Assembly: GCF_003815915.1 (NCBI RefSeq)
Contig: NZ_CP033929.1
Coordinates: forward strand, 1,426,001 to 1,490,000
From: Chryseobacterium indoltheticum
GTDB lineage: Bacteria > Bacteroidota > Bacteroidia > Flavobacteriales > Weeksellaceae
Direction: 5' to 3'
Length of the DNA stretch: 64,000 nt
Made by a program: the position numbers and the translations under genes. Below are positions 7,564 through 23,964 of the stretch, one piece after another (within the stretch, counting starts at the first letter, position 1; every line of letters begins with the position of its first letter). The notes beneath the pieces were generated by a model. The model had not been told where the DNA came from. It worked only from the letters and a program-made list of their open reading frames with translations, and did not search any database.

Positions 7564-9159
7564 TTACCGACTGTAATACTGAATCTGCATTTCCTTCGGG
7601 TATTTTACTTCATAAGAGAAATTGATTTTTTCTGCAGCTCCGCTGTTGATTTTTCTGTTCCAAAGAATACTTCCTGTTTTTTCATCATAATTTCCGTCTC
7701 CGATATTTAAAGTTTTGATAGTGATTTTCTGATTTTCACTTAATGGAATTTGGTCTAAAATTTCCAGTTCTATACTTTCTTTCGTGTTATTTCTGATGGA
7801 TATTTCGTAAGATTCTGTTTCCCATTTATTAGAATTGAAAGATTTTTGAGCTGTTTTATCTTCAAGTTTGATACGTTTTACCACAATTCTTTCATCAACT
7901 CCAAGAGAAATTGGGAACTCATCTTTTACATAATTGCTTGTAATATTGGTTTTTCCGATATAATTATCTTCAAAATAAATATTCGCTTCACCTGAAATAA
8001 GATTTAAATTCTGCCAGTTTTTCACGAAAGCCATTAAGAAAACCTGATTGTTCAGTTTCGGAACGGTGTGATATTTGTAATTGGCTTCTACATTTTTCTT
8101 ATCTAAAATCACATATTGTTCTTTTTCCTGACTTACGATGGTTTGATTGTAATTCAATTCATATAAAATATTCATCTGATTATCCGAAACCGTTGCAACA
8201 GGGATTTGACTTATTGATGCAACTTCTGCTCTCATCTGATAAGAATTTGATATTTCTGCTTTCGCTTTTTGCATATAACCTACTTTTGCATCTTCATTAT
8301 TGTAAGCGGCATATTCAGCAACATATAAAGGCGATAAAATCGGTCTGTTTTGGTTGTAAGAAGGTCTGTAAGTAGACACAAAAAGTTTGATATTGTTCCA
8401 GTCTTGTCCGGTTTTTTGGTAGATTTTTCCTTTGTAGACAATTTCTAAAGGTTTCTTCGTAGACAAAGCTCTCAAATCATAAGATTGAACCCAGCCTGCA
8501 TTAGAAACGATATAGCTTAGTCCAAGATTCAGATTCATTTCATTTTCAGCGAGAATTTCAAGTAAAAGTTCTTTTCTATTTTGTGTTTTATGAGTTTGTT
8601 CTTCGGCAAATTGCTTGTTGATTTTAGCAATGCTTTCATCAAACGTAGTTTTTTGCTCGTTCAGAAGAAAAACCTGATTGTCGATTTCCAGCATTCTTTT
8701 TCTGTAAAATTCAGTCAGTTTTATCAACTGTTCCTGCGGAGTCGATTTATCATTCGTTGAAACTTTAAGATTATCATTAATAATATTTTGTTCACCCGTC
8801 AGATTTTTAATCTGAATATTCAATAAATTAATCTGTCTCTGAAATTTTTTTCTTTCATCATCCAGTTTTTTTTCGCCGTCGGTCAGTTCATCATTTTTGA
8901 GATAATTATTTTGTGGGGTAATTGATAAAAGCGTTGTGTTTTTTTCAAGATTGATTTTGTAAGTATTTTCATCTAAATCATTCGGAAGGTTAATGATTTT
9001 CACGGTGTTTCTACCTTTTTGGAGAGTAACGTTTGTACTTCCGAAAACTTTTGCGCCCTGCAGAAATACAGTGGCCTGTTTTACATCGATTTCTTTTTTA
9101 ATTTCCTGAGATTTAAAAAACGAAACCATCAAAATGAGTATTAAAATAGAGTGTCGCAT
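7564..9159 (-). CDS. DUF4139/DUF4140 (mucoidy-inhibitor-like) exported protein
   Basis: A 531-residue exported protein with signal peptide (MRHSILILILMVSFFKSQ), an N-terminal DUF4140 domain (residues 20-100, ATVFLQGAKVFGS), a coiled-coil (about 80-190) and a C-terminal DUF4139 beta domain (about 210-531, SYIVSNAGWVQSYDLRAL and TYRPSYNQNRPI). The family is common in Bacteroidota and eukaryotes; its biochemical role is unknown and the mucoidy name is historical. Its promoter carries the paired repeats proposed here as LytTR operators, linking it to the SIMPL genes upstream. Confidence 0.85.
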   Translation of the reverse strand: MRHSILILILMVSFFKSQEIKKEIDVKQATVFLQGAKVFGSTNVTLQKGRNTVKIINLPNDLDENTYKINLEKNTTLLSITPQNNYLKNDELTDGEKKLDDERKKFQRQINLLNIQIKNLTGEQNIINDNLKVSTNDKSTPQEQLIKLTEFYRKRMLEIDNQVFLLNEQKTTFDESIAKINKQFAEEQTHKTQNRKELLLEILAENEMNLNLGLSYIVSNAGWVQSYDLRALSTKKPLEIVYKGKIYQKTGQDWNNIKLFVSTYRPSYNQNRPILSPLYVAEYAAYNNEDAKVGYMQKAKAEISNSYQMRAEVASISQIPVATVSDNQMNILYELNYNQTIVSQEKEQYVILDKKNVEANYKYHTVPKLNNQVFLMAFVKNWQNLNLISGEANIYFEDNYIGKTNITSNYVKDEFPISLGVDERIVVKRIKLEDKTAQKSFNSNKWETESYEISIRNNTKESIELEILDQIPLSENQKITIKTLNIGDGNYDEKTGSILWNRKINSGAAEKINFSYEVKYPKEMQIQYYSR

Positions 9160-9184: not shown

Positions 9185-9250
9185 TAAAATTACTTTGATT
9201 AGAAACCGAAAATCTGAAGACTTGGTGAACTTAGGTTTTCACTTGGTGAG
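9185..9250 (-). promoter_or_regulatory. Promoter and candidate LytTR operator of the DUF4139 gene
   Basis: Direct repeats ACTTGGTGAAC (9220-9230) and ACTTGGTGAG (9241-9250) start exactly 21 bp apart. A -7-like box TAATTTTA (minus strand, 9185-9192) follows after 27 bp. The operator centre is about 55 bp upstream of the predicted start, the usual place for an activator just upstream of -33. Binding by the LytTR regulator at 13697 is inference. Confidence 0.65.
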
Positions 9251-9299
9251 AGTTTTTAAGCGAAAAAAAGACAGCCATTTCTGACTGCCTCTTAAAAAA

Positions 9300-9974
9300 C
9301 TAAAGAATTTCGTATTTTGTTTTGATGCTGTATTTCAGCTTGATATTTTCGATGTTGTCGAACGAATAATCCATACTTTGGTCGGCTGCTTCCAACTGTA
9401 CATTCGCCATTTTGCTTCTGTAAGCAACGGGAAGAATAGAATCACTCATGTAATCTTCAATTTCTGTAATCTCAATCGCATCTCCGGCCTTTTTATTGAT
9501 GCTTCCCAAAAGATAATCTGCTTTCTCTTTCGCGGCTTTTAAGGCATTAATTTTAACCGTTTTTCTGAAATCTGCAATTTTTGTGTTTTTAATTTCTGCA
9601 ATATTCAGATTGCTTACCCATTTCTGATTAAGATCTTCAAAAAGCTTACTCACATTGGTTTTAGCATTTACTTTAAACTGAAAACTCTTGGTAAACTTCG
9701 TTGTTTTCGAATATAAATTCTGGTACATCGATTTAAATTTGATGTCTTCATTTTTTACGCCATTGTTTTTCAGTGTTTCAAATAAAAGTTTTTCGCTGTC
9801 TGCCAGTTGATTTTTGTTGTCGGCTTTTATACCGATACTAAAGATGATTTCATCCGGTTCTACTTCCATTTCGGCAACTCCTGTTACTTCAATTGCATTT
9901 TTCTTTACTTCCTGCGCATTCACCAAACTTCCTGCTGCAAAGATTCCTACTAATAAAAGGTGTTTCAGTTTCAT
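9300..9974 (-). CDS. SIMPL (DUF541) domain exported protein
   Basis: A 224-residue periplasmic or outer-membrane-facing protein with signal peptide (MKLKHLLLVGIFAAGSLVNAQ). The SIMPL/DUF541 hallmark is near residue 29 (IEVTGVAEMEVEPDEIIFSIGI), with a later AALKAAKEKADYL-like helix. The family forms oligomeric envelope proteins, BP26 of Brucella being the best known, of unclear function. The gene has its own operator-bearing promoter and lies between the DUF4139 gene and a longer SIMPL paralogue, all on the same strand. Confidence 0.88.
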   Translation of the reverse strand: MKLKHLLLVGIFAAGSLVNAQEVKKNAIEVTGVAEMEVEPDEIIFSIGIKADNKNQLADSEKLLFETLKNNGVKNEDIKFKSMYQNLYSKTTKFTKSFQFKVNAKTNVSKLFEDLNQKWVSNLNIAEIKNTKIADFRKTVKINALKAAKEKADYLLGSINKKAGDAIEITEIEDYMSDSILPVAYRSKMANVQLEAADQSMDYSFDNIENIKLKYSIKTKYEIL

Positions 9975-10022
9975 AATGTATGTATTTATTATTTTTTAAT
10001 TTCTTGTTTTTAATTTCTAAAG

Positions 10023-10088
10023 TAAAATTACCACGATTTGAAACTGAAATTTTGTAAACTTGGTGAACCGAGCATTTCACTTGGTGAA
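10023..10088 (-). promoter_or_regulatory. Promoter and candidate LytTR operator of the first SIMPL gene
   Basis: ACTTGGTGAAC (10058-10068) and ACTTGGTGAA (10079-10088) have a 21-bp period. TAATTTTA (minus strand, 10023-10030) lies 27 bp from the nearer repeat, identical spacing to the DUF4139 promoter. The box-flanking TAATTTTACTnTAGAA is also shared by the two promoters. Predicted leader is about 43 nt. Confidence 0.65.
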
Positions 10089-10092
10089 TGTT

Positions 10093-11049
10093 TTATTTAT
10101 TAGATTTAGGAATATTCAAATCTCGCATTTCTCCATTGGGAGTTATCAAAATATAAGATTTGCTTTCTTTGTTATCATTTTTTTTCTCTTTGTTAATTAC
10201 TAATTTCACTTCATACATCACCTGTATAACGGGTTCCAGAATTGTGGGATTAATCACAAAATCGAATTCTTTGTCAAAAACCGGTTGATAATACAAGGTC
10301 GTTGATTTATTTGCCTGATTTAAGTTTGCCAGTTTCGTCAAAGCCAGAGACGAACTGTTGTAAGCCTCATAAGATTTGTACATTTCTGTCGGAAGTTTTA
10401 GCTGAAATCCATCGTTAATTGATTTTTCACTGTTTGCAAAACTTTCTCCGAGAAGTGTTTCATAGTTTTTCACTTTTTCCTGAAGGGCAATTTTTGCTTT
10501 ATTCATCAAATCTTTTTTGATGGTTTCGAGGCTGTTTGCAAAATAATCTACCCTTACCAGATCATAAATTTCATTTTTTGATAAAACTGAAATAAACTCA
10601 TTCAACTGTGAAGGATCTGAGAATTGAATGTGCAGATTTTTTTTAAGTTCGAAACCGGTTGGCACTTCATTGTAAGTTTTTCGGCTGAAAATCTTTTTCT
10701 CTACCGCATATTGATAGACCGGCACAAAAGAAATCATGTCAACATACGTTTCAATTCCTTTATTAATTTTAATTTGATTTAATGCGGTGTTTAGACGTCT
10801 GTCCATCAGTGAATTCACTTCATCCGCTGTTTCTGCTACTTGTGTCAGACTAAAAATCGCAACGTATTTATCAGCCTTTACGTTGGCCATACCTTTTATG
10901 CTAATGACAATATGATTGTCTACAGGAACATTAATACTGATATTATTTTCCTGATAACGCACTTGATTTTGATAGTTAATATTTCCTGAGAACTGTGCAA
11001 AGGTAAATTGAAAAAAGAAAGCTGAAGTCAAAAATAAAATGTTTTTCAT
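10093..11049 (-). CDS. SIMPL-like exported protein, longer paralogue
   Basis: A 318-residue exported protein with signal peptide (MKNILFLTSAFFFQFTFAQ). The SIMPL-type entry strand is near residue 47 (IVISIKGMANVKADKYVAIFSLTQ), followed by helix-rich segments (NSLMDRRLNTALNQI; AKIALQEKVKNYETLLGES). The C-terminal 60 residues are Lys/Asn-rich. Similarity to SIMPL is weaker than for the preceding gene, so a diverged paralogue is the best call. It is divergent from the sensor kinase gene, sharing one operator with it. Confidence 0.7.
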   Translation of the reverse strand: MKNILFLTSAFFFQFTFAQFSGNINYQNQVRYQENNISINVPVDNHIVISIKGMANVKADKYVAIFSLTQVAETADEVNSLMDRRLNTALNQIKINKGIETYVDMISFVPVYQYAVEKKIFSRKTYNEVPTGFELKKNLHIQFSDPSQLNEFISVLSKNEIYDLVRVDYFANSLETIKKDLMNKAKIALQEKVKNYETLLGESFANSEKSINDGFQLKLPTEMYKSYEAYNSSSLALTKLANLNQANKSTTLYYQPVFDKEFDFVINPTILEPVIQVMYEVKLVINKEKKNDNKESKSYILITPNGEMRDLNIPKSNK

Positions 11050-11073
11050 GAGAATTAAGTTTAAATTATATCA

Positions 11074-11176
11074 CAAACTTATTGGTCTTTTAAAAGCTAT
11101 TTGAAGTCAACTTGGTCAACCTTGCTTTTCACTTGGTGAATAGTTTTTGGGTAAACTATATATATGTATATCTTTG
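11074..11176. promoter_or_regulatory. Divergent promoter pair with one shared LytTR-like operator
   Basis: Repeats ACTTGGTCAAC (11110-11120) and ACTTGGTGAA (11131-11140) have a 21-bp period. To the left lies TAAGTTTG (minus strand, 11074-11081) for the SIMPL-like gene; to the right lies TATCTTTG (11169-11176) for the kinase gene. Both boxes are 28 bp from the operator, so it is centred about 56 bp from each predicted start. The kinase start would fall on its ATG, giving a leaderless message. Positive autoregulation is the inference. Confidence 0.7.
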
Positions 11177-11180
11177 TTTT

Positions 11181-12950
11181 ATGAATTTAGTTCGGTTTTT
11201 TGTGTTGGTTTTTATGATGATTTCTGTGAATAATCTTTATTCGCAAAGTAAGGAGACGCAGGAAGTTGTAGCAGAAACGTCAAAACTGAAAAAAGCAGTC
11301 GAAACAAAAAACGAATCCGCAGAAGCCGAATCTTATTACAATATCGGCGAAACATTTTTTAATGATAGAAATTTTTCTAAAAGTGAAGAGTATTTTATAA
11401 AATCTAAAAATATCTACGAAAAGCTTAATGACAAGCAAAATCTCGAAAAAGTAATCCGAAAACTGGCGCAGTCTCAGGAAAATCAGAATAAGCTGAAATC
11501 TGCGCAAAGCAACTACCAAAAAGCTTCAAAAATTGGATATTCTAAATCAAAAAGAAATTTAAATGCCAATGACGCTTCAAGGCTTTCTTCTCCGGCGCCA
11601 GAAAATAAAGCTGAAGCTATTCAAAGTAACATTCAGATCAGCGAAAAAGAAAACAATAAACAAGATCTTGCCGCAAGCTACAGCCAAATGGCCGATGTAA
11701 ATATTGAAAATAAAAATATTCCGAAAGCCGAAGAAAACCTCAATACAGCCTATCAGATTTCAAAAGAACAAGCGCCTCAACAAGCTTTGGCAATCAATCA
11801 GAAACTGACCAATTTTTATGTTGACAATAAAGATTTTGACAAAGCAATAGAAGCCAAAAAATCTGTTTTAAAAGAAAATTTCGTTAAAGAAAATTCTCAG
11901 AAAAAAGTAGAGCAGATTCAGGAACTGGCAGAAATTTACATCAAAAAAAATGATCCGAAGGAAGCGATTGTTTTATTGAAAAATGCTTATGATATTGCTT
12001 TACAGAAAGGTCACACTTTGGAAGCTCAGAAAAGTGTAAAAAAACTTGACAGTCTTTATAATATTTCAGAAAATACAGATGCTTCTGTGTTGCTTTATCG
12101 TGATTTTCTTGGGAAATTACCTGATCTGGTTTCTAAAGACAGAAGTTTGGTAGATAATAAAATTCTTGAAGATACAGAGCAGAAAATTTCTCAACTTCTG
12201 CAAGAAAAGAAATTGAAAGACGAACTAATTCGCAAGAAAAATATTTTCAATTACAGTTTAATTGGAGTGTTGGTTTTACTGACGGGTTTAATAATTTTTA
12301 TTTTCAGAACTCTGAAAAAAGTTCAGATTAAAAACAAAAAAATTGCGTTGCAGTCGCTTCGTCGTGAGATGAATCCGCACTTTATTTTTAACAGTTTAAA
12401 TTCTGTCAATCATTTTATTGCAACCAATAATGAACTGGAAGCCAATCAATATTTAACCAAATTTTCAAAATTAATGCGTGGCGTTATGGAAAATTCCAGT
12501 GAAGATTTTATACCATTTCAGCAGGAACTAGATTTACTTCAGAATTATCTGGCTTTAGAAAAAACACGTTTTGCCGATAAATTTGACTACGAAATTGAAG
12601 TGGATGAAAGTTTAAATACTCAAAATCTAAAAGTTCCGGGAATGTTGATACAGCCATTTTTAGAAAATGCAGTTTGGCACGGCTTAAGATACAGAACTGA
12701 TAAGGGATTTTTAAGTTTAAAATTCACAAAAAACAACGATTTTCTGAAAATTACGATTAAAGATAACGGGATAGGAATAGAAGAAAGCAAAAAGCAAAAA
12801 ACAGAACACCAAAAAACACGTGAAGGACGCGGAATGAAAAATACTTTGGAAAGAATCAAACTGCTGAATGATTTGTACAAGAAAAATATTATCTGTACGG
12901 TAAAAGATTCTGAAAACGGAGTTTTTGTTGAAGTTTCAATGATAATTTAA
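11181..12950 (+). CDS. LytS-type sensor histidine kinase with TPR sensor region
   Basis: Membrane histidine kinase of the His_kinase (YehU/LytS) type. From ATG 11181: signal peptide (MNLVRFFVLVFMMISVNNLYSQ), a periplasmic helical region with TPR-like repeats (about residues 40-320), a coiled-coil, one membrane helix (about 357-378), the phospho-acceptor block MNPHFIFNSLN with His400, and a HATPase domain (QPFLENAVWHG, DNGIG, GRGMKNTLERI). A TTG 69 bp upstream is in frame but lies inside the operator. The ATG is favoured because a -7 box ends 5 nt before it. It forms an operon with the next two genes. Confidence 0.9.
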   Translation: MNLVRFFVLVFMMISVNNLYSQSKETQEVVAETSKLKKAVETKNESAEAESYYNIGETFFNDRNFSKSEEYFIKSKNIYEKLNDKQNLEKVIRKLAQSQENQNKLKSAQSNYQKASKIGYSKSKRNLNANDASRLSSPAPENKAEAIQSNIQISEKENNKQDLAASYSQMADVNIENKNIPKAEENLNTAYQISKEQAPQQALAINQKLTNFYVDNKDFDKAIEAKKSVLKENFVKENSQKKVEQIQELAEIYIKKNDPKEAIVLLKNAYDIALQKGHTLEAQKSVKKLDSLYNISENTDASVLLYRDFLGKLPDLVSKDRSLVDNKILEDTEQKISQLLQEKKLKDELIRKKNIFNYSLIGVLVLLTGLIIFIFRTLKKVQIKNKKIALQSLRREMNPHFIFNSLNSVNHFIATNNELEANQYLTKFSKLMRGVMENSSEDFIPFQQELDLLQNYLALEKTRFADKFDYEIEVDESLNTQNLKVPGMLIQPFLENAVWHGLRYRTDKGFLSLKFTKNNDFLKITIKDNGIGIEESKKQKTEHQKTREGRGMKNTLERIKLLNDLYKKNIICTVKDSENGVFVEVSMII

Positions 12951-17430: not shown

Positions 17431-17523
17431 TTTTTTTTCCAAAAATTCAATTCACAAAATAAATTAACTTTACCGTAACAAAATTAAATTTAAATATACT
17501 TATTGTATAAATTATTATTTACA

Positions 17524-19578
17524 ATGAAAAAATTAACGCTTTCTTTGTTTTTATTAGCAGGGGTTTGTTCACAAAATACGTTGAACGCTCAGACTAAATC
17601 TACTCAATCAGCATCTACAACAGATAAAGGTTTAGACATCAGTTTGATGGATAAATCTGTTCGTCCACAGGATGATTTCTATAATTATGTAAGCGGAACT
17701 TGGATGAAAACTGCCAAAATCCCTTCTGATAAACCAACTTGGGGAAGCTTCAACAAATTGGCGGATGATACCGATAACAATTCGATGACGATTCTTAACT
17801 CGCTTCTGAAAGATAAATTCGCAGAAGGAAGTGAAGGTAAAAAAATCCAGGATTTGTACGCAACGTACATGAATATGGAGAAGAGAAATGCAGACGGAAT
17901 CAAGCCTATTCAGGAAAACATCAACAAAATTGATGCAATCAAAAATCTGAATGATCTTCAGAATTATTTAACATCAGTTACCAAAGACGGAGAAAATAAT
18001 TTCTACGGATGGGGTGTTTATTCTGATCTGAAAAACTCTAATATGAATGCAGTTTACCTTGGTGACGCTTCATTAGGGATGGGTAGAGATTACTATCAGA
18101 AAGTTGATGCCAAAAACACAGAAGCTCTTGCAGAATACCAAAAGTATGTAGCTTCTATGTTGAAAGAATTAGGCTACAAAAATGCTGATGCAGCTGCGAA
18201 AGGTATTGTAGATTACGAAAAAAGCATTGCAAAACATTTATTAACGAATGAGCAAAGCCGTGACAATACGCTTCAGTACAACCCAAAAACAATGACTGAA
18301 CTTAAAACTTTGGTTAAAAATGTAGATCTTCCTGCTTATCTTAAGAAAGTTGGGGTAGATACAGACCGAGTGATTATTGGGGAGCTGGATTACTATAAAA
18401 ACTTTGATAAATTGGTAAATGCCAAAACATTACCTGTAATTAAAGATTATCTGAAATTCCACATGATCAATGGAAGCGCTTCTTATTTAAGTGAAAAATT
18501 AGGAGATGCAAAATTTGCTTTTTATGGTAAATATTTAAGAGGTCAGCAAGAGCAGAGAGCTTTAAACAAAAGAGGATATGAGTTGATCAATGGTTCTTTG
18601 GGTGAAGCTTTCGGAAAATTATATGTTGAAAAATACTTCCCGGCTGAGGCAAAAGCTCAGATGGTTGAGCTGATCGATTATTTAAAGAAAAGTTTTGCAG
18701 TTCACATCAACGGTTTAGCGTGGATGTCTGCTACTACAAAAGAAAAAGCAACGGCTAAGCTAAATAAATTTACAGTAAAAGTTGCTTATCCTGATACTTG
18801 GAAAGATTATTCTAAATTAAATATCGTTCCTGAATCTAAAGGTGGTAATTTATATGCAAACCTTCAGAACATTTCTGAATGGCAGTATAATAAAGATTTA
18901 GCAAAAATCGGAAAACCGGTTGATAAAACAGAATGGGGAATGACTCCACAAACTGTAAATGCGTATTACAACCCGGTTTACAACGAGATCGTGTTCCCTG
19001 CTGCAATTCTTCAGCCGCCATTCTTTAATCCTAAAGCAGATGCTGCGGTTAATTTTGGAGGAATCGGTGCTGTTATCGGTCACGAAATGAGTCATGGTTT
19101 TGATGATTCCGGAGCTCAGTTTGATGCAGAAGGAAACTTAGTGGACTGGTGGACTCCTGAAGACAAGGCTAACTTCGAAAAAGCAACTAAAGCTTTAGCC
19201 TCTCAATATGATAAGTATGAGCCTGTAAAAGGAACTTTCGTAAACGGTACGTTCACAAATGGTGAAAATATTGCCGATCTTGGTGGTGTAAACATTGCTT
19301 ACGACGCTTTACAAATGTATTTAAAAGATAAAGGAAATCCTGGCATGATCAGCGGTTATACACAAGATCAGAGATTTTTCCTAAGCTGGGCAACCGTTTG
19401 GAGAACTTTATCAAGCGAAAAATATATGGTGAACCAAGTAAAAACAGATCCGCATTCTCCTGGATATTTCAGAAGTTTCGGTCCGTTGACAAACGTAGAT
19501 GCTTTCTACAAAGCATTTGATGTGAAACCTGGTGATAAACTATACAAAAAACCAGAAGACAGAATTAAAATCTGGTAA
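17524..19578 (+). CDS. M13-family zinc metallopeptidase, secreted
   Basis: Neprilysin/PepO-type endopeptidase cleaving short peptides. Signal peptide MKKLTLSLFLLAGVCSQNTLNAQ, M13 N-terminal helical domain opening with RPQDDFYNYVSGTWMK, then the catalytic domain with HEMSH (residues 520-524), the ENIADLGG third-ligand motif, and the C-terminal PHSPGYFRSFGPLTN block. I start at ATG 17524, seven codons after the longest frame, as it begins the signal peptide. It is 684 residues long and closely related to the next gene, with its own terminator between them. Confidence 0.93.
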   Translation: MKKLTLSLFLLAGVCSQNTLNAQTKSTQSASTTDKGLDISLMDKSVRPQDDFYNYVSGTWMKTAKIPSDKPTWGSFNKLADDTDNNSMTILNSLLKDKFAEGSEGKKIQDLYATYMNMEKRNADGIKPIQENINKIDAIKNLNDLQNYLTSVTKDGENNFYGWGVYSDLKNSNMNAVYLGDASLGMGRDYYQKVDAKNTEALAEYQKYVASMLKELGYKNADAAAKGIVDYEKSIAKHLLTNEQSRDNTLQYNPKTMTELKTLVKNVDLPAYLKKVGVDTDRVIIGELDYYKNFDKLVNAKTLPVIKDYLKFHMINGSASYLSEKLGDAKFAFYGKYLRGQQEQRALNKRGYELINGSLGEAFGKLYVEKYFPAEAKAQMVELIDYLKKSFAVHINGLAWMSATTKEKATAKLNKFTVKVAYPDTWKDYSKLNIVPESKGGNLYANLQNISEWQYNKDLAKIGKPVDKTEWGMTPQTVNAYYNPVYNEIVFPAAILQPPFFNPKADAAVNFGGIGAVIGHEMSHGFDDSGAQFDAEGNLVDWWTPEDKANFEKATKALASQYDKYEPVKGTFVNGTFTNGENIADLGGVNIAYDALQMYLKDKGNPGMISGYTQDQRFFLSWATVWRTLSSEKYMVNQVKTDPHSPGYFRSFGPLTNVDAFYKAFDVKPGDKLYKKPEDRIKIW

Positions 19579-19597
19579 TCAGTATTTAAAATATTCA

Positions 19598-19626
19598 AAA
19601 CCGTTCAGAAATGAGCGGTTTTTTTT
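19598..19626 (+). terminator. Terminator between the M13 peptidase genes
   Basis: 8-bp stem AACCGTTC/GAGCGGTT with one G-T pair, loop AGAAAT, then eight T. It separates the two paralogous peptidases into independent units. Confidence 0.8.
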
Positions 19627-19750
19627 ATTCAATAGAAGCGGGATTTAGCACGTTTTCTTAATAAACTCTTCAAATGGCTTTAGCCAAATCATACTATTTT
19701 TCATTTCAGGAATGTAAAAAAACGCATAAAATTAATTTAACATTAATTGC

Positions 19751-19758
19751 TATATTTG
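19751..19758 (+). promoter_or_regulatory. -7 promoter box of the second M13 peptidase
   Basis: TATATTTG matches TAnnTTTG and lies 32 nt upstream of ATG 19791. No exact -33 TTG at the usual distance. It argues that the in-frame ATG at 19674, which lies upstream of it, is not used. Confidence 0.55.
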
Positions 19759-19790
19759 ATCAAACTGTTTTACACATCAAAATTATTTTA

Positions 19791-21890
19791 ATGAAAAAGC
19801 TAAATATTGCAGTACTTGCATTCTCAGGTATTGTATTCTTAAATTCTTGTGGTACTACCAAAAATACAACTGCAACTGTGGAAAAAGCTCCTACAAATAT
19901 CGTTGTTGAGAATTCTTCAATGACTATTTATCCTGAAAACGGAATTAATTTATCTTATATGGATAAAACGATTCGTCCGCAGGATGATTTCTTCAGTTAT
20001 GTCAACGGGAATTGGGTAAAAGAAACTCAGATTCCTTCTGATAAAGCAAGTTGGGGATCTTTCAATGCGTTGAGAGAAAATGTAGATGATGCTTCGCTAG
20101 GTATTTTAAATAAAATTTTAACCGAGAAATACGCTGAAGGTTCTGAAGGACAAAAAATTCAGAATCTGTATGCATCTTTTATGGATGTCAGCAAAAGAAA
20201 TGCAGATGGTATCAATCCAATTAAAGGAGATTTAGCAAAAGTTGATGCCATTAAAAATGTAAATGATCTTCAGAAGTATCTTTTAGAAGCGACAAAATTG
20301 GGAGATAACTCTTTCTATGGTTGGAGAGTAAGCGCAGACATGAAAAACTCTAAGATGAATGCGGTTTATCTTGGTGGTCCAGATCTTGGTTTAGGAAGAG
20401 ATTATTATCAAAAAGTAAATGAAGCCAATACCAAAACTTTAGCTGAATATCAAAATTATGTTGCTAAATTGTTTGTCGTTTTAGGATATAAAAATTCTGA
20501 TGCAACAGCTAAAAATGTAGTTGATTTTGAAAAGCAACTGGCCAATTATTTATTGACTTTAGAGCAAAACAGAGATGCTAATTTAAGATACAATCCTAAA
20601 AATGTTACTGAGCTTTCTGGCTTGGTAAAAAATGTAAATTTGGCTAAATATCTGAAAGATGCAGGCGTAAATACTGATAAAGTAATCGTGGGTGAACTGA
20701 AATATTACCAAAATATGGATCAGTTTATCAATCAGAAAAATCTTCCGTTGTTGAAAGATTATTTGAAATATCATATCATCAATGGGAATGCAAGTAATTT
20801 GGGCGATAATCTAGACAATATCCGTTTCGATTTTTACTCTAAATATCTTCAGGGACAGAAAGAACAGCGAGCGATGGACAAAAGAGGTTTAGCGCTTGTA
20901 AACGGAGTTTTGGGTGAAGCATTCGGAAAATTGTATGTTGACAAATATTTTACGCCGGAATCAAAGCAACAAATGGAAATGTACATCGACTACATTTTAA
21001 AATCATTCAAAAAACATATCCATGATATGGATTGGATGTCGCCGGAAACCAAAGTAAAAGCTCAGGAAAAACTATCAAAATTCTCTGTGAAAATCGCTTA
21101 TCCGGATCAGTGGAAAGATTATTCTAAACTAAAAGTAGAAGCTCCGGCTCAAGGGGCTACGTTATATTCCAACTTACAAAATGTTTCCGCTTGGCAATAT
21201 CAGAAAAGCTTAGAAAAAGTAGGAAAACCTGTTGATAAAACGGAATGGGGAATGTCTCCACAAACCGTAAATGCATATTACAGCGGTTCAAATAACGAAA
21301 TTGTTTTCCCAGCAGCGATTCTTCAGCCACCTTTTTACAATCCTAAAGCTGATGCTGCAGTGAATTTCGGAGGAATCGGAGCAGTGATTGGTCATGAAAT
21401 CTCACACGGTTTTGATGATAGCGGTTCAAGATTCGATGGCGACGGAAATCTAAATAATTGGTGGACTGATCAGGATCGTAAGAATTTTGATGCAAAAGTG
21501 GGACAATTGGCAGCTCAATACAACGCTTACGAACCAGTAAAAGGAAGTTTTGTAAACGGAAAATTTACCAGCGGTGAAAATATTGGGGATTTAGGTGGCG
21601 TAGCGGTTGCTTATGATGCTTTACAGATGTATTTAAAAGATAAAGGAAATGTAGGTTTGATTAGCGGGTTTACTCAGGATCAGCGGTTTTTTATGAGCTG
21701 GGCAACAGTTTGGAGAACAAAATCTACCGATCAGTATATGATGAATCAGGTGAAAACAGATCCGCATTCACCGGGATATTTCCGAGCTTTCGGGCCTTTG
21801 GTAAACCAGGATTCTTTTATGAAAGCATTCGATATTAAGCCTGGAGACAAGCTTTATAAAGCTCCGGCTGAGAGAATTAAAATTTGGTAA
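19791..21890 (+). CDS. M13-family zinc metallopeptidase, lipoprotein paralogue
   Basis: Second neprilysin-like peptidase of 699 residues, parallel to the preceding gene along its whole length. It differs in targeting: the N-terminus MKKLNIAVLAFSGIVFLNSC is a lipoprotein signal with Cys20, so this copy is membrane-anchored. Catalytic HEISH is at residues 535-539, with ENIGDLGG and PHSPGYFRAFGPL following. Start is ATG 19791, behind a consensus -7 box. A tandem gene duplication with diverging cell location is the simplest reading. Confidence 0.93.
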   Translation: MKKLNIAVLAFSGIVFLNSCGTTKNTTATVEKAPTNIVVENSSMTIYPENGINLSYMDKTIRPQDDFFSYVNGNWVKETQIPSDKASWGSFNALRENVDDASLGILNKILTEKYAEGSEGQKIQNLYASFMDVSKRNADGINPIKGDLAKVDAIKNVNDLQKYLLEATKLGDNSFYGWRVSADMKNSKMNAVYLGGPDLGLGRDYYQKVNEANTKTLAEYQNYVAKLFVVLGYKNSDATAKNVVDFEKQLANYLLTLEQNRDANLRYNPKNVTELSGLVKNVNLAKYLKDAGVNTDKVIVGELKYYQNMDQFINQKNLPLLKDYLKYHIINGNASNLGDNLDNIRFDFYSKYLQGQKEQRAMDKRGLALVNGVLGEAFGKLYVDKYFTPESKQQMEMYIDYILKSFKKHIHDMDWMSPETKVKAQEKLSKFSVKIAYPDQWKDYSKLKVEAPAQGATLYSNLQNVSAWQYQKSLEKVGKPVDKTEWGMSPQTVNAYYSGSNNEIVFPAAILQPPFYNPKADAAVNFGGIGAVIGHEISHGFDDSGSRFDGDGNLNNWWTDQDRKNFDAKVGQLAAQYNAYEPVKGSFVNGKFTSGENIGDLGGVAVAYDALQMYLKDKGNVGLISGFTQDQRFFMSWATVWRTKSTDQYMMNQVKTDPHSPGYFRAFGPLVNQDSFMKAFDIKPGDKLYKAPAERIKIW

Positions 21891-22602: not shown

Positions 22603-23964
22603 ATGGATAGTAAATTACAGGCTGCAGAAAGTCAACAGCATAATCAACAACAACAGGCGGGCAGACCGAAAAGCAATCCGCTAGAAGAACTAAATAAAAT
22701 CGGAGGCTTTGGCTTTATAGAATCTGTCGTAGACGGGATTGCCAATATGAACCCAACCAGAAAAGCAAGAAAAGAAATCTTCCTGAATGATGGTAATAAA
22801 ACCGATGAGAGAAAAGAGCTGCTACAGAAAATTAATCTCTGGGTAGAGCTTTTAAGCAGTAACGAATCTGCTGAAAAAATGGCAGAAACCTGCAAAAATA
22901 AAGCACAAAATGCAGATCAGAATTTAAAGTTAAATCTTAAAAATTCTCTTGATGCTGTTCGTCAATTGGAAACTTCATACAGAACTGTTGCTCAGTTTTA
23001 TAAAAATACAGAACTAGACAAGGTAGATAATGTAAGCATCGTAAATGCAACGTTAGAGCAGGTTTCAGATTTAGATAACCCGTTATTTATCGATGCTATT
23101 TCTGATGAGTTTAAAAATTATTACGACCGTTTAGATCTAAGAGATAACTATTCTATTTTGGCGATTCCGGGATATTTGGGATCGAATAAAGTAATTGAAA
23201 AATGGGCAAAAATCTGTAACGAAAACAAAGTAATGATGGTTACCGATTTTGCCAATCTTGATAAGCCTGATGATGTAGTCGATCTATTTCACTCTGCAAA
23301 TCTTACGGGTGGCGAATTGCACCGAAGTAATGTCATTATGACATGTAACTGGCTTGTTGGTCGTGGTAGAGCAGAAGAAGTAGGTGAAGAAGAAAACGTA
23401 GAACTTCCACCTTCAACTTCGTTGGCAGGAAAAATTCACAAAACATTAATGTCACAGGTTGCTGCCGGTAAAAAACACGGTAATATCAACGAAGTAGATG
23501 CTGTGAAATTTGAATTAAAGAAAAGTGAAATTTCCCAGTTAGAAAAAATGGGATTGGTTCCTATGGTGAACGAGTACGGAAAAATCATGGCATTCTCTGC
23601 AAAAACATTGTTTACAGGAGATAACATCGGTCTTCAGACGTATTCTGTAGTTCGTGTATTCGATTATGTAACTAAAGTTTTATTGGATTTCTTAAACAGA
23701 AGAGCCTTTGAAAACTGGAATGCAAGAAACGAAGATGATTTGAGAAAGCAGATTGTAAGTTTCTTAGACGGTATAAAAGGTGCTGATAAATTAATAGAAA
23801 AGTTCAAAATTGTACGTTTTGAGCAGGATAAAGTAAATAAAGACAGAGTTTGGCTAGATATCAGATTGACTCCATATTTCCCGACAAAAAGTTTTGTGAT
23901 CAAGCTTGACGGCCACAAAGGTGATGACGGTAACGAGTGGGATGCAGAATATATCCAGGATTAA
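22603..23964 (+). CDS. tssC: T6SS contractile sheath large subunit (DUF5458)
   Basis: Large sheath subunit of the Bacteroidota T6SS, known as the DUF5458 family. Features include the Gln-rich N-terminus, NPLEELNKIGGFGFIESVVDGI near residue 25, DNYSILAIPGYLGSNKVIEKWA (about 185) and the C-terminal WLDIRLTPYFPTKSFVIKLDGH, which forms the inter-subunit strand. At 453 residues it is full length. It is co-transcribed with tssB and followed by its own terminator, so the sheath pair forms a stand-alone two-gene unit here. Confidence 0.9.
   Translation: MDSKLQAAESQQHNQQQQAGRPKSNPLEELNKIGGFGFIESVVDGIANMNPTRKARKEIFLNDGNKTDERKELLQKINLWVELLSSNESAEKMAETCKNKAQNADQNLKLNLKNSLDAVRQLETSYRTVAQFYKNTELDKVDNVSIVNATLEQVSDLDNPLFIDAISDEFKNYYDRLDLRDNYSILAIPGYLGSNKVIEKWAKICNENKVMMVTDFANLDKPDDVVDLFHSANLTGGELHRSNVIMTCNWLVGRGRAEEVGEEENVELPPSTSLAGKIHKTLMSQVAAGKKHGNINEVDAVKFELKKSEISQLEKMGLVPMVNEYGKIMAFSAKTLFTGDNIGLQTYSVVRVFDYVTKVLLDFLNRRAFENWNARNEDDLRKQIVSFLDGIKGADKLIEKFKIVRFEQDKVNKDRVWLDIRLTPYFPTKSFVIKLDGHKGDDGNEWDAEYIQD

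Follow-up and report, generated by a model that had tools for sequence, protein, structure and literature searches.

A candidate LytTR regulon of SIMPL, DUF4139 and VWA genes with a direct-repeat operator of 21-bp period in Chryseobacterium and relatives

The window, that is, the whole stretch of 64,000 nucleotides of Chryseobacterium indoltheticum DNA analysed here (contig NZ_CP033929.1, positions 1,426,001 to 1,490,000), contains a VWA-like and a DUF4139 gene on the reverse strand, followed by operator 1, a reverse-strand SIMPL gene, operator 2, a reverse-strand SIMPL-like gene and operator 3. Rightward of operator 3, genes for a histidine kinase, a PA3715-family protein and a LytTR response regulator are read on the forward strand (Table 1). 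Farther along, two consecutive PepO-like peptidase genes (window 17503-21890) were followed by a gene matching TssC of the type VI secretion sheath family (window 22603-23964).

Table 1. Coordinates of genes, candidate operators and predicted promoter boxes in the window.
Feature	Position	Strand	Context or basis
VWA-like protein P0007	6060..7253	-	downstream of DUF4139
DUF4140/DUF4139 protein P0006, MuiA family	7564..9159	-	Pfam; TIGR02231 244.3 bits
Predicted -7 box TAATTTTA, DUF4139	9185..9192	-	sequence reading and offset rule
Operator 1, direct repeat pair, 21-bp period	9220..9250	+	upstream of DUF4139
SIMPL protein P0005	9300..9974	-	PF04402 70.2 bits
Predicted -7 box TAATTTTA, SIMPL	10023..10030	-	sequence reading and offset rule
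Operator 2	10058..10088	+	upstream of SIMPL
Second SIMPL-type protein P0004 (SIMPL-like)	10093..11049	-	PF04402 38.5 bits
Predicted -7 box TAAGTTTG, SIMPL-like gene	11074..11081	-	sequence reading and offset rule
Operator 3, divergent	11110..11140	+	between SIMPL-like (-) and kinase (+)
Predicted -7 box TATCTTTG, kinase operon	11169..11176	+	sequence reading and offset rule
TPR histidine kinase P0002	11181..12950	+	PF06580 77.2 bits, TPR_12 53.5 bits
PA3715-family protein P0003	12958..13683	+	in kinase operon; NF052451 203 bits
LytTR response regulator P0001	13697..14431	+	PF00072 61.5 bits (cut-off 30.2), PF04397 46.4 bits (cut-off 22.6)

The regulator P0001 was 99 percent identical to a LytTR protein of C. 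balustinum, and 78 of its 80 named relatives were titled Chryseobacterium. A recognised DNA-binding domain was present in no other scanned protein of the module, and P0001 is the proposed binder of the operators. Most of the best 60 of its 128 matches in the PDB fell on the receiver domain; the LytTR-domain alignment comprised 15 sequences. The kinase adjoined the regulator in the regulator loci that were fetched, while P0003 was present at only some relatives' loci. By-eye reading of the kinase P0002 found, from the N-terminus on, a hydrophobic stretch, TPR repeats, a single membrane span at about residue 355 and the kinase domain, and its TPR sensor part is probably extracytoplasmic. Read in the same way, the N-termini of the effector proteins had signal-peptide-like stretches, and the SIMPL, SIMPL-like, DUF4139 and VWA proteins are probably secreted. 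The VWA assignment of P0007 came from a match to PF13519 of 21.6 bits, under the cut-off of 27, and from a relative that passed PF00092 (26.6 versus 23.8 bits).

The initial annotation had described a pair of direct ACTTGGT-containing repeats at 9220, 10058 and 11110, and all three 31-mers matched at these coordinates with 0 mismatches, with the 21-bp repeat period and the TTTC at the end of the spacer in every copy. As operator 3 is divergent and serves two genes, the three operators serve four starts. The pair is not a random feature of this genome: exact ACTTGGT-N14-ACTTGGT occurred three times in 4,253,895 bases, all inside the window, and the next best genomic places carried 2 mismatches. 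Moreover, the 31-base pattern was absent from 100 dinucleotide shuffles of the window, even with 3 mismatches permitted. The loose motif (3 or fewer mismatches) was not enriched genome-wide, with 305 places versus 505 for the reversed control, so that only the tight motif is meaningful.

The half-site repeat is ACTTGGTGAA, and the pair, ACTTGGTGAA-N11-ACTTGGTGAA, places the two repeats two helical turns apart. Across 183 distinct sites (1 or no mismatch) the consensus was [AG]ACTTGGTGAA-N7-TTT[CG]-ACTTGGTGAA, in which the repeats were conserved far better than the N7 spacer. The spacer TTT, of which the search pattern contained only the middle base, was nearly invariant in the genus; given this near-invariance of TTT[CG], the second repeat is longer than the first. 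The TTT[CG] preceding the second repeat (e.g., window 10075-10078) was also seen in another family, and TTCAC-TTG-GTGAA forms an odd palindrome within the operator. Direct half-site pairs numbered 180 at period 21 and 4 at every other period from 8 to 60 together, while inverted pairs numbered 3. With 10-bp repeats, a period of 21 and a gap of 11, the site has the form of LytTR targets, namely two direct repeats, each 9-11 bp long, separated by 10-13 bp.

The -7-like boxes expected from the initial annotation were present at all four starts, their first bases 27-29 bp away from the closer end of the 30-base core. Taking the flavobacterial -7 box, TAnnTTTG, to lie at -12 to -5 (PMC9723704), the operator centre is predicted to fall at about -55/-56, in agreement with the initial annotation. 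As predicted from the positions of the -7 boxes, the operator would lie upstream of the -35/-33 element, as LytTR regulons require. This geometry was repeated in the fetched regions: TANNTTTG (1 or no mismatch) began 57-59 bp from the far edge of the site, on the gene side, in 73/79 kinase cases and 145/148 effector cases, with a background rate of 370/7840 and with 3/116 on the forward side of non-kinase sites (the site before a broken kinase left out). For DUF4139, the box stood at offset 57 in all of 34 cases, and for SIMPL in 66 of 71.

Of the 196 sites of the fetched set, 32 lay between a kinase and a SIMPL-type gene, and both boxes were present at 23 of these shared sites. Where no recognised target lay behind a kinase site (47 cases), a reverse box was present in 17, and in 15 of the 17 a reading frame of at least 80 codons started 55-76 bp away; of the 30 without a reverse box, 17 had a frame of at least 80 codons within 40-130 bp, the frames there being mostly a 583-587 residue protein that is perhaps no target. 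In four loci (L128, L165, L169 and L171), the kinase site had on its reverse side, at the distance usual for effectors, a gene for a putative secreted protein of 456-461 residues. The distance from site to start was 41-42 bp in 46/79 kinase cases. In the window, the predicted +1 of the kinase operon coincides with the start codon (11169-11183), and the kinase mRNA may therefore be leaderless; predicted leaders are about 20 nt for DUF4139 and SIMPL-like and about 44 nt for SIMPL.

The set of 196 sites (2 or fewer mismatches; the genus counts below allow 1 or none) came from 80 fetched regions plus the window. The regions were taken from 76 chosen genomes, special cases first, four of which (G142, G053, G078 and G150) gave two regions each; 68 of the 76 belonged to the 148-genome draw of the genus, 3 more to the genus and 5 to other genera of the family. 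In these relatives, too, the pair precedes the genes of the module, with 180/196 sites before kinase, SIMPL, SIMPL-like or DUF4139 genes. The remaining 16 preceded VWA genes (10, one interrupted), a 191-residue protein (4), a rhodanese-like gene (1) and a broken kinase (1). Thus, VWA relatives had an operator of their own in 10 cases among the fetched regions; within the window P0007 has none of its own, and we place this gene in the module as a further member, an addition to the initial annotation. A kinase-side site was found in 73/81 fetched stretches, some of the other 8 being target-only stretches, and no site was found upstream of the kinase in G150 (L103). Paralogues of DUF4139 (25-30 percent identity) were rejected as extra targets, since no site was found in 9/9 of their loci, where the best candidates had 4-6 mismatches of 17.

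The site was oriented in the same way throughout. Of the starts within 260 bp of it, all 79 of kinases lay on its forward side and all 133 of SIMPL or DUF4139 genes on its reverse side, without exception; the 15 other effector sites agreed, as did the placements in the other family (9 kinase, 14 VWA). The kinase operon thus stands on the ACTTGGT-forward side and the effectors on the reverse side, including at targets apart from the regulator. A single forward DUF4139 match with 1 mismatch, in L288, looks like chance.

Across the genus, 140 of the 148 genomes carried the motif (1 or no mismatch), with 366 matches versus 9 for the reversed pattern. An orthologue of P0001 was intact in 137 of the 148 and split in G062, and all 138 of these genomes carried the motif. 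Motif and orthologue were both present in 138 genomes, the motif without an orthologue found in 2, neither in 8, and the orthologue without the motif in 0 (Fisher p 1e-11, not corrected for kinship). Absence of the motif tracks that of the regulator: the 8 motif-less genomes are 8 of the 10 in which no regulator orthologue was found. In the other two, G056 and G123, contigs end inside the kinase gene, so the regulator may merely be missing from the assembly. Because close SIMPL, DUF4139 and VWA orthologues were likewise not found in the 8 motif-less genomes, regulator, sites and targets go together, and at least four independent changes are needed to explain their joint loss on the rpoB-region tree, which covered 30 chosen genomes and had an unsettled bootstrap. 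Each of the 8 still had 9-19 weaker matches to P0001, taken together as putative LytTR proteins, and those in G086 and G102 included matches of 37-38 percent that spanned almost the full length; other putative regulators of this sort do not, then, maintain the motif. Two loci appeared to be decaying: G298 (L120) had an in-frame stop in the regulator and truncated SIMPL and kinase genes, and in G062 (L113) kinase and regulator were in pieces, which is either a decaying regulon or possibly an assembly error.

Since the regulator sits beside most targets and disappears with them, joint loss by itself cannot identify the binder. A better test than loss of the whole locus comes from targets separate from the regulator, and all four that we found keep the upstream site: in G142 SIMPL lies about 2 Mb along the contig and in G053 about 210 kb away, and DUF4139 lies about 19 kb away in G078 and on another contig of a draft assembly in G150. 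Membership of the target set varied, in that SIMPL was not found in G031, G063, G078 and G089, though regulator and motif were kept, while a VWA orthologue was present in 114/148 genomes and missing in 26 besides the 8 motif-less ones. For 4 of these 8, the lack of VWA was taken from the genomes listed as having no match, and for the other 4 from their not being among the 114. Close DUF4139 orthologues, sought in 17 chosen genomes, were present in 4 of the 9 motif-bearing genomes searched.

A draw of 197 genomes of the family included 147 from outside the genus, of which 5 had the orthologue (E 1e-50 or better) and 4 of these 5 the motif. The fifth, G224, with a regulator 64 percent identical, had a diverged pair, GAATGGGTAAAT repeated at 21 bp. 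Among the 142 family genomes outside the genus without the orthologue, 3 had a single motif match (G151, G154 and G260); these matches, which carry 1 mismatch apiece and fall outside the consensus spacer, look like chance. At the level of the order, 80 of 395 genomes had a match to P0001 at E 1e-55 or better. From outside the family we fetched 35 of the 44 listed matches, including all 15 of genus g35 of another family (which we infer to be Flavobacterium), as well as 5 paralogue loci. In g35 a 21-bp pair, mostly AATGGTGAAAC then ACTTGGTGAAA, stood before VWA or kinase genes in 15/15 loci fetched, while across 41 loci the same half-site was placed near such genes 0, 0, 1 and 2 times at periods 19, 20, 22 and 23. 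A motif-free search for repeats upstream of module genes covered loci with a usable upstream region, which was not found for the paralogue group (6 loci). In three groups the commonest period was 21, with 9, 11 and 6 repeats; no other period in the range 12 to 40 gave more than 2, and neither did 30 shuffles at period 21. The 19 distant loci contributed only 6 unaided 21-bp repeats.

Published LytTR regulators recognise repeats that are 9-11 bp long and separated by 11-13 bp (PMC4847170) or by 10-13 bp, mostly upstream of -35 as activators (PMC11347149). Their sites have been described as having no common consensus (PMC4847170) versus a broad one (PMC6193735). Because the site described here fits LytTR targets in repeat length, gap and place, we interpret it as a site from which P0001 activates transcription, with the kinase operon under positive feedback. 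That it is the operator of P0001 we hold to be very probable. To the fuller reading, in which P0001 activates the SIMPL, SIMPL-like, DUF4139 and VWA genes together with its own kinase operon, we give a probability of roughly 0.8. This reading was built from sequence comparison, namely the motif, its spacing, the distance to the -7 box, the target set, the joint loss with the regulator, the conservation at targets apart from the regulator and the 21-bp pair conserved beyond the genus. The proposal of the initial annotation, that the LytTR protein drives the envelope genes and its own operon, agreed with the comparative checks; P0001 as the binder, activation, the signal and any envelope function are inferences.

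Mechanistically, the kinase P0002, with its probably extracytoplasmic TPR sensor, would phosphorylate P0001, two molecules of which would sit side by side on the ACTTGGTGAA-N11-ACTTGGTGAA direct repeats. Bound P0001 would recruit RNA polymerase to promoters whose -7 box starts 27-29 bp from the operator edge and would thereby switch on the SIMPL, SIMPL-like, DUF4139 and VWA proteins, while the divergent operator copy would also turn on the kinase operon as positive feedback. A role of the regulon in envelope stress is a guess made from its targets.

It is the position of the site that favours activation over the opposite sign of control. The same LytTR operators might instead serve mainly in repression or as an autoregulatory brake, the effectors being de-repressed on signal, and one LytTR repressor, CoxC, has direct-repeat sites overlapping the -35 box (PMC11347149). 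In the present loci, however, the pair appears to precede the core promoter, at a spacing that is constant both ways, like that of most LytTR activators (PMC11347149), and the -7 boxes of SIMPL and DUF4139 have A rather than G as the final base, which would suit a weak promoter needing help, so that we consider repression improbable.

It is less probable still, and in our view quite unlikely, that the motif is owned by another DNA-binding protein lost with the gene block, with the LytTR protein a bystander. Regulator, sites and targets do vanish together, as such an owner would have it, and because the parts of the module are lost jointly, co-occurrence alone cannot separate the candidates for the binder. 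Against this, no other scanned protein of the module has a recognised DNA-binding domain, the site precedes the kinase-regulator operon itself, and LytTR regulators bind repeats of this length and gap (9-11 bp and 11-13 bp; PMC4847170, PMC6193735). That the three copies, which lie within 2 kb, are a functionless local duplication has a negligible probability, as the site is kept across the genus and in another family at its exact period and promoter distance with repeats far better conserved than the N7 spacer, and an origin by chance or duplication was rejected on genome uniqueness, the 21-bp period and this conservation in the other family.

The fixed orientation of the site may be functional or may have been inherited from one ancestral divergent site. 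We suggest only tentatively, and with some doubt, that one asymmetric direct-repeat operator drives both flanking promoters at equal distance with a meaningful polarity. If so, a LytTR dimer would contact RNA polymerase with two different faces, and sensor and effectors could get different outputs from one kind of site.

SIMPL (DUF541) and DUF4139 are Pfam families of unknown function, and we know of no assigned role for the VWA-like family of P0007. Linking SIMPL, DUF4139 and VWA proteins to a single sensor and to an operator recognisable in the sequence opens their shared trigger and their function to direct testing. Additionally, the order-wide series of operators, in which the motif drifts at a constant 21-bp period, is a data set on how LytTR domains choose their DNA. 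Among the listed matches of a search of the open-licence PMC literature there was no report of a LytTR operator in Bacteroidota or of the present regulon, which we take to be new, and of the already known LytTR two-component kind.

On the features compared, the system appears to work like the LytTR two-component regulons and to belong with them: P0001 has receiver and LytTR domains, and a PF06580 kinase is encoded in the same operon. LRS regulators are not known to have a kinase or a receiver, and in an LRS they are paired with an inhibitory membrane protein; with kinase and receiver both present here, this system is not an LRS. AgrA of Staphylococcus aureus, which acts at the P2/P3 promoters, has a receiver domain, as P0001 does, and a LytTR domain with a site at the promoter of its own operon, also as here. 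Its repeat sequence is other than the one described here and its partner kinase is AgrC, in contrast to the TPR kinase, flavobacterial -7 promoters and SIMPL/DUF4139/VWA targets of the present system. The AgrA site is centred at about -60 (PMC4227749). A Riemerella system considered as an orthologue is described in its abstract as PhoP/PhoR, and the text makes no mention of LytTR (PMC5399024), so we do not equate it with the present one. Escherichia coli YpdA/YpdB is a two-component system of the LytS/LytTR type whose regulator binds a tandem direct repeat, as is proposed here, but it has a single named target, yhjX (PMC4847170), whereas the present module has several targets and a TPR sensor. 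Finally, the LRS (HdrRM, BrsRM) resemble the system described here in their positive autoregulation and in having direct repeats upstream of -35, the gap being 12 bp in most, and differ from it in pairing the regulator with an inhibitory membrane protein (PMC6193735), where the present operon pairs a receiver-bearing regulator with a histidine kinase.
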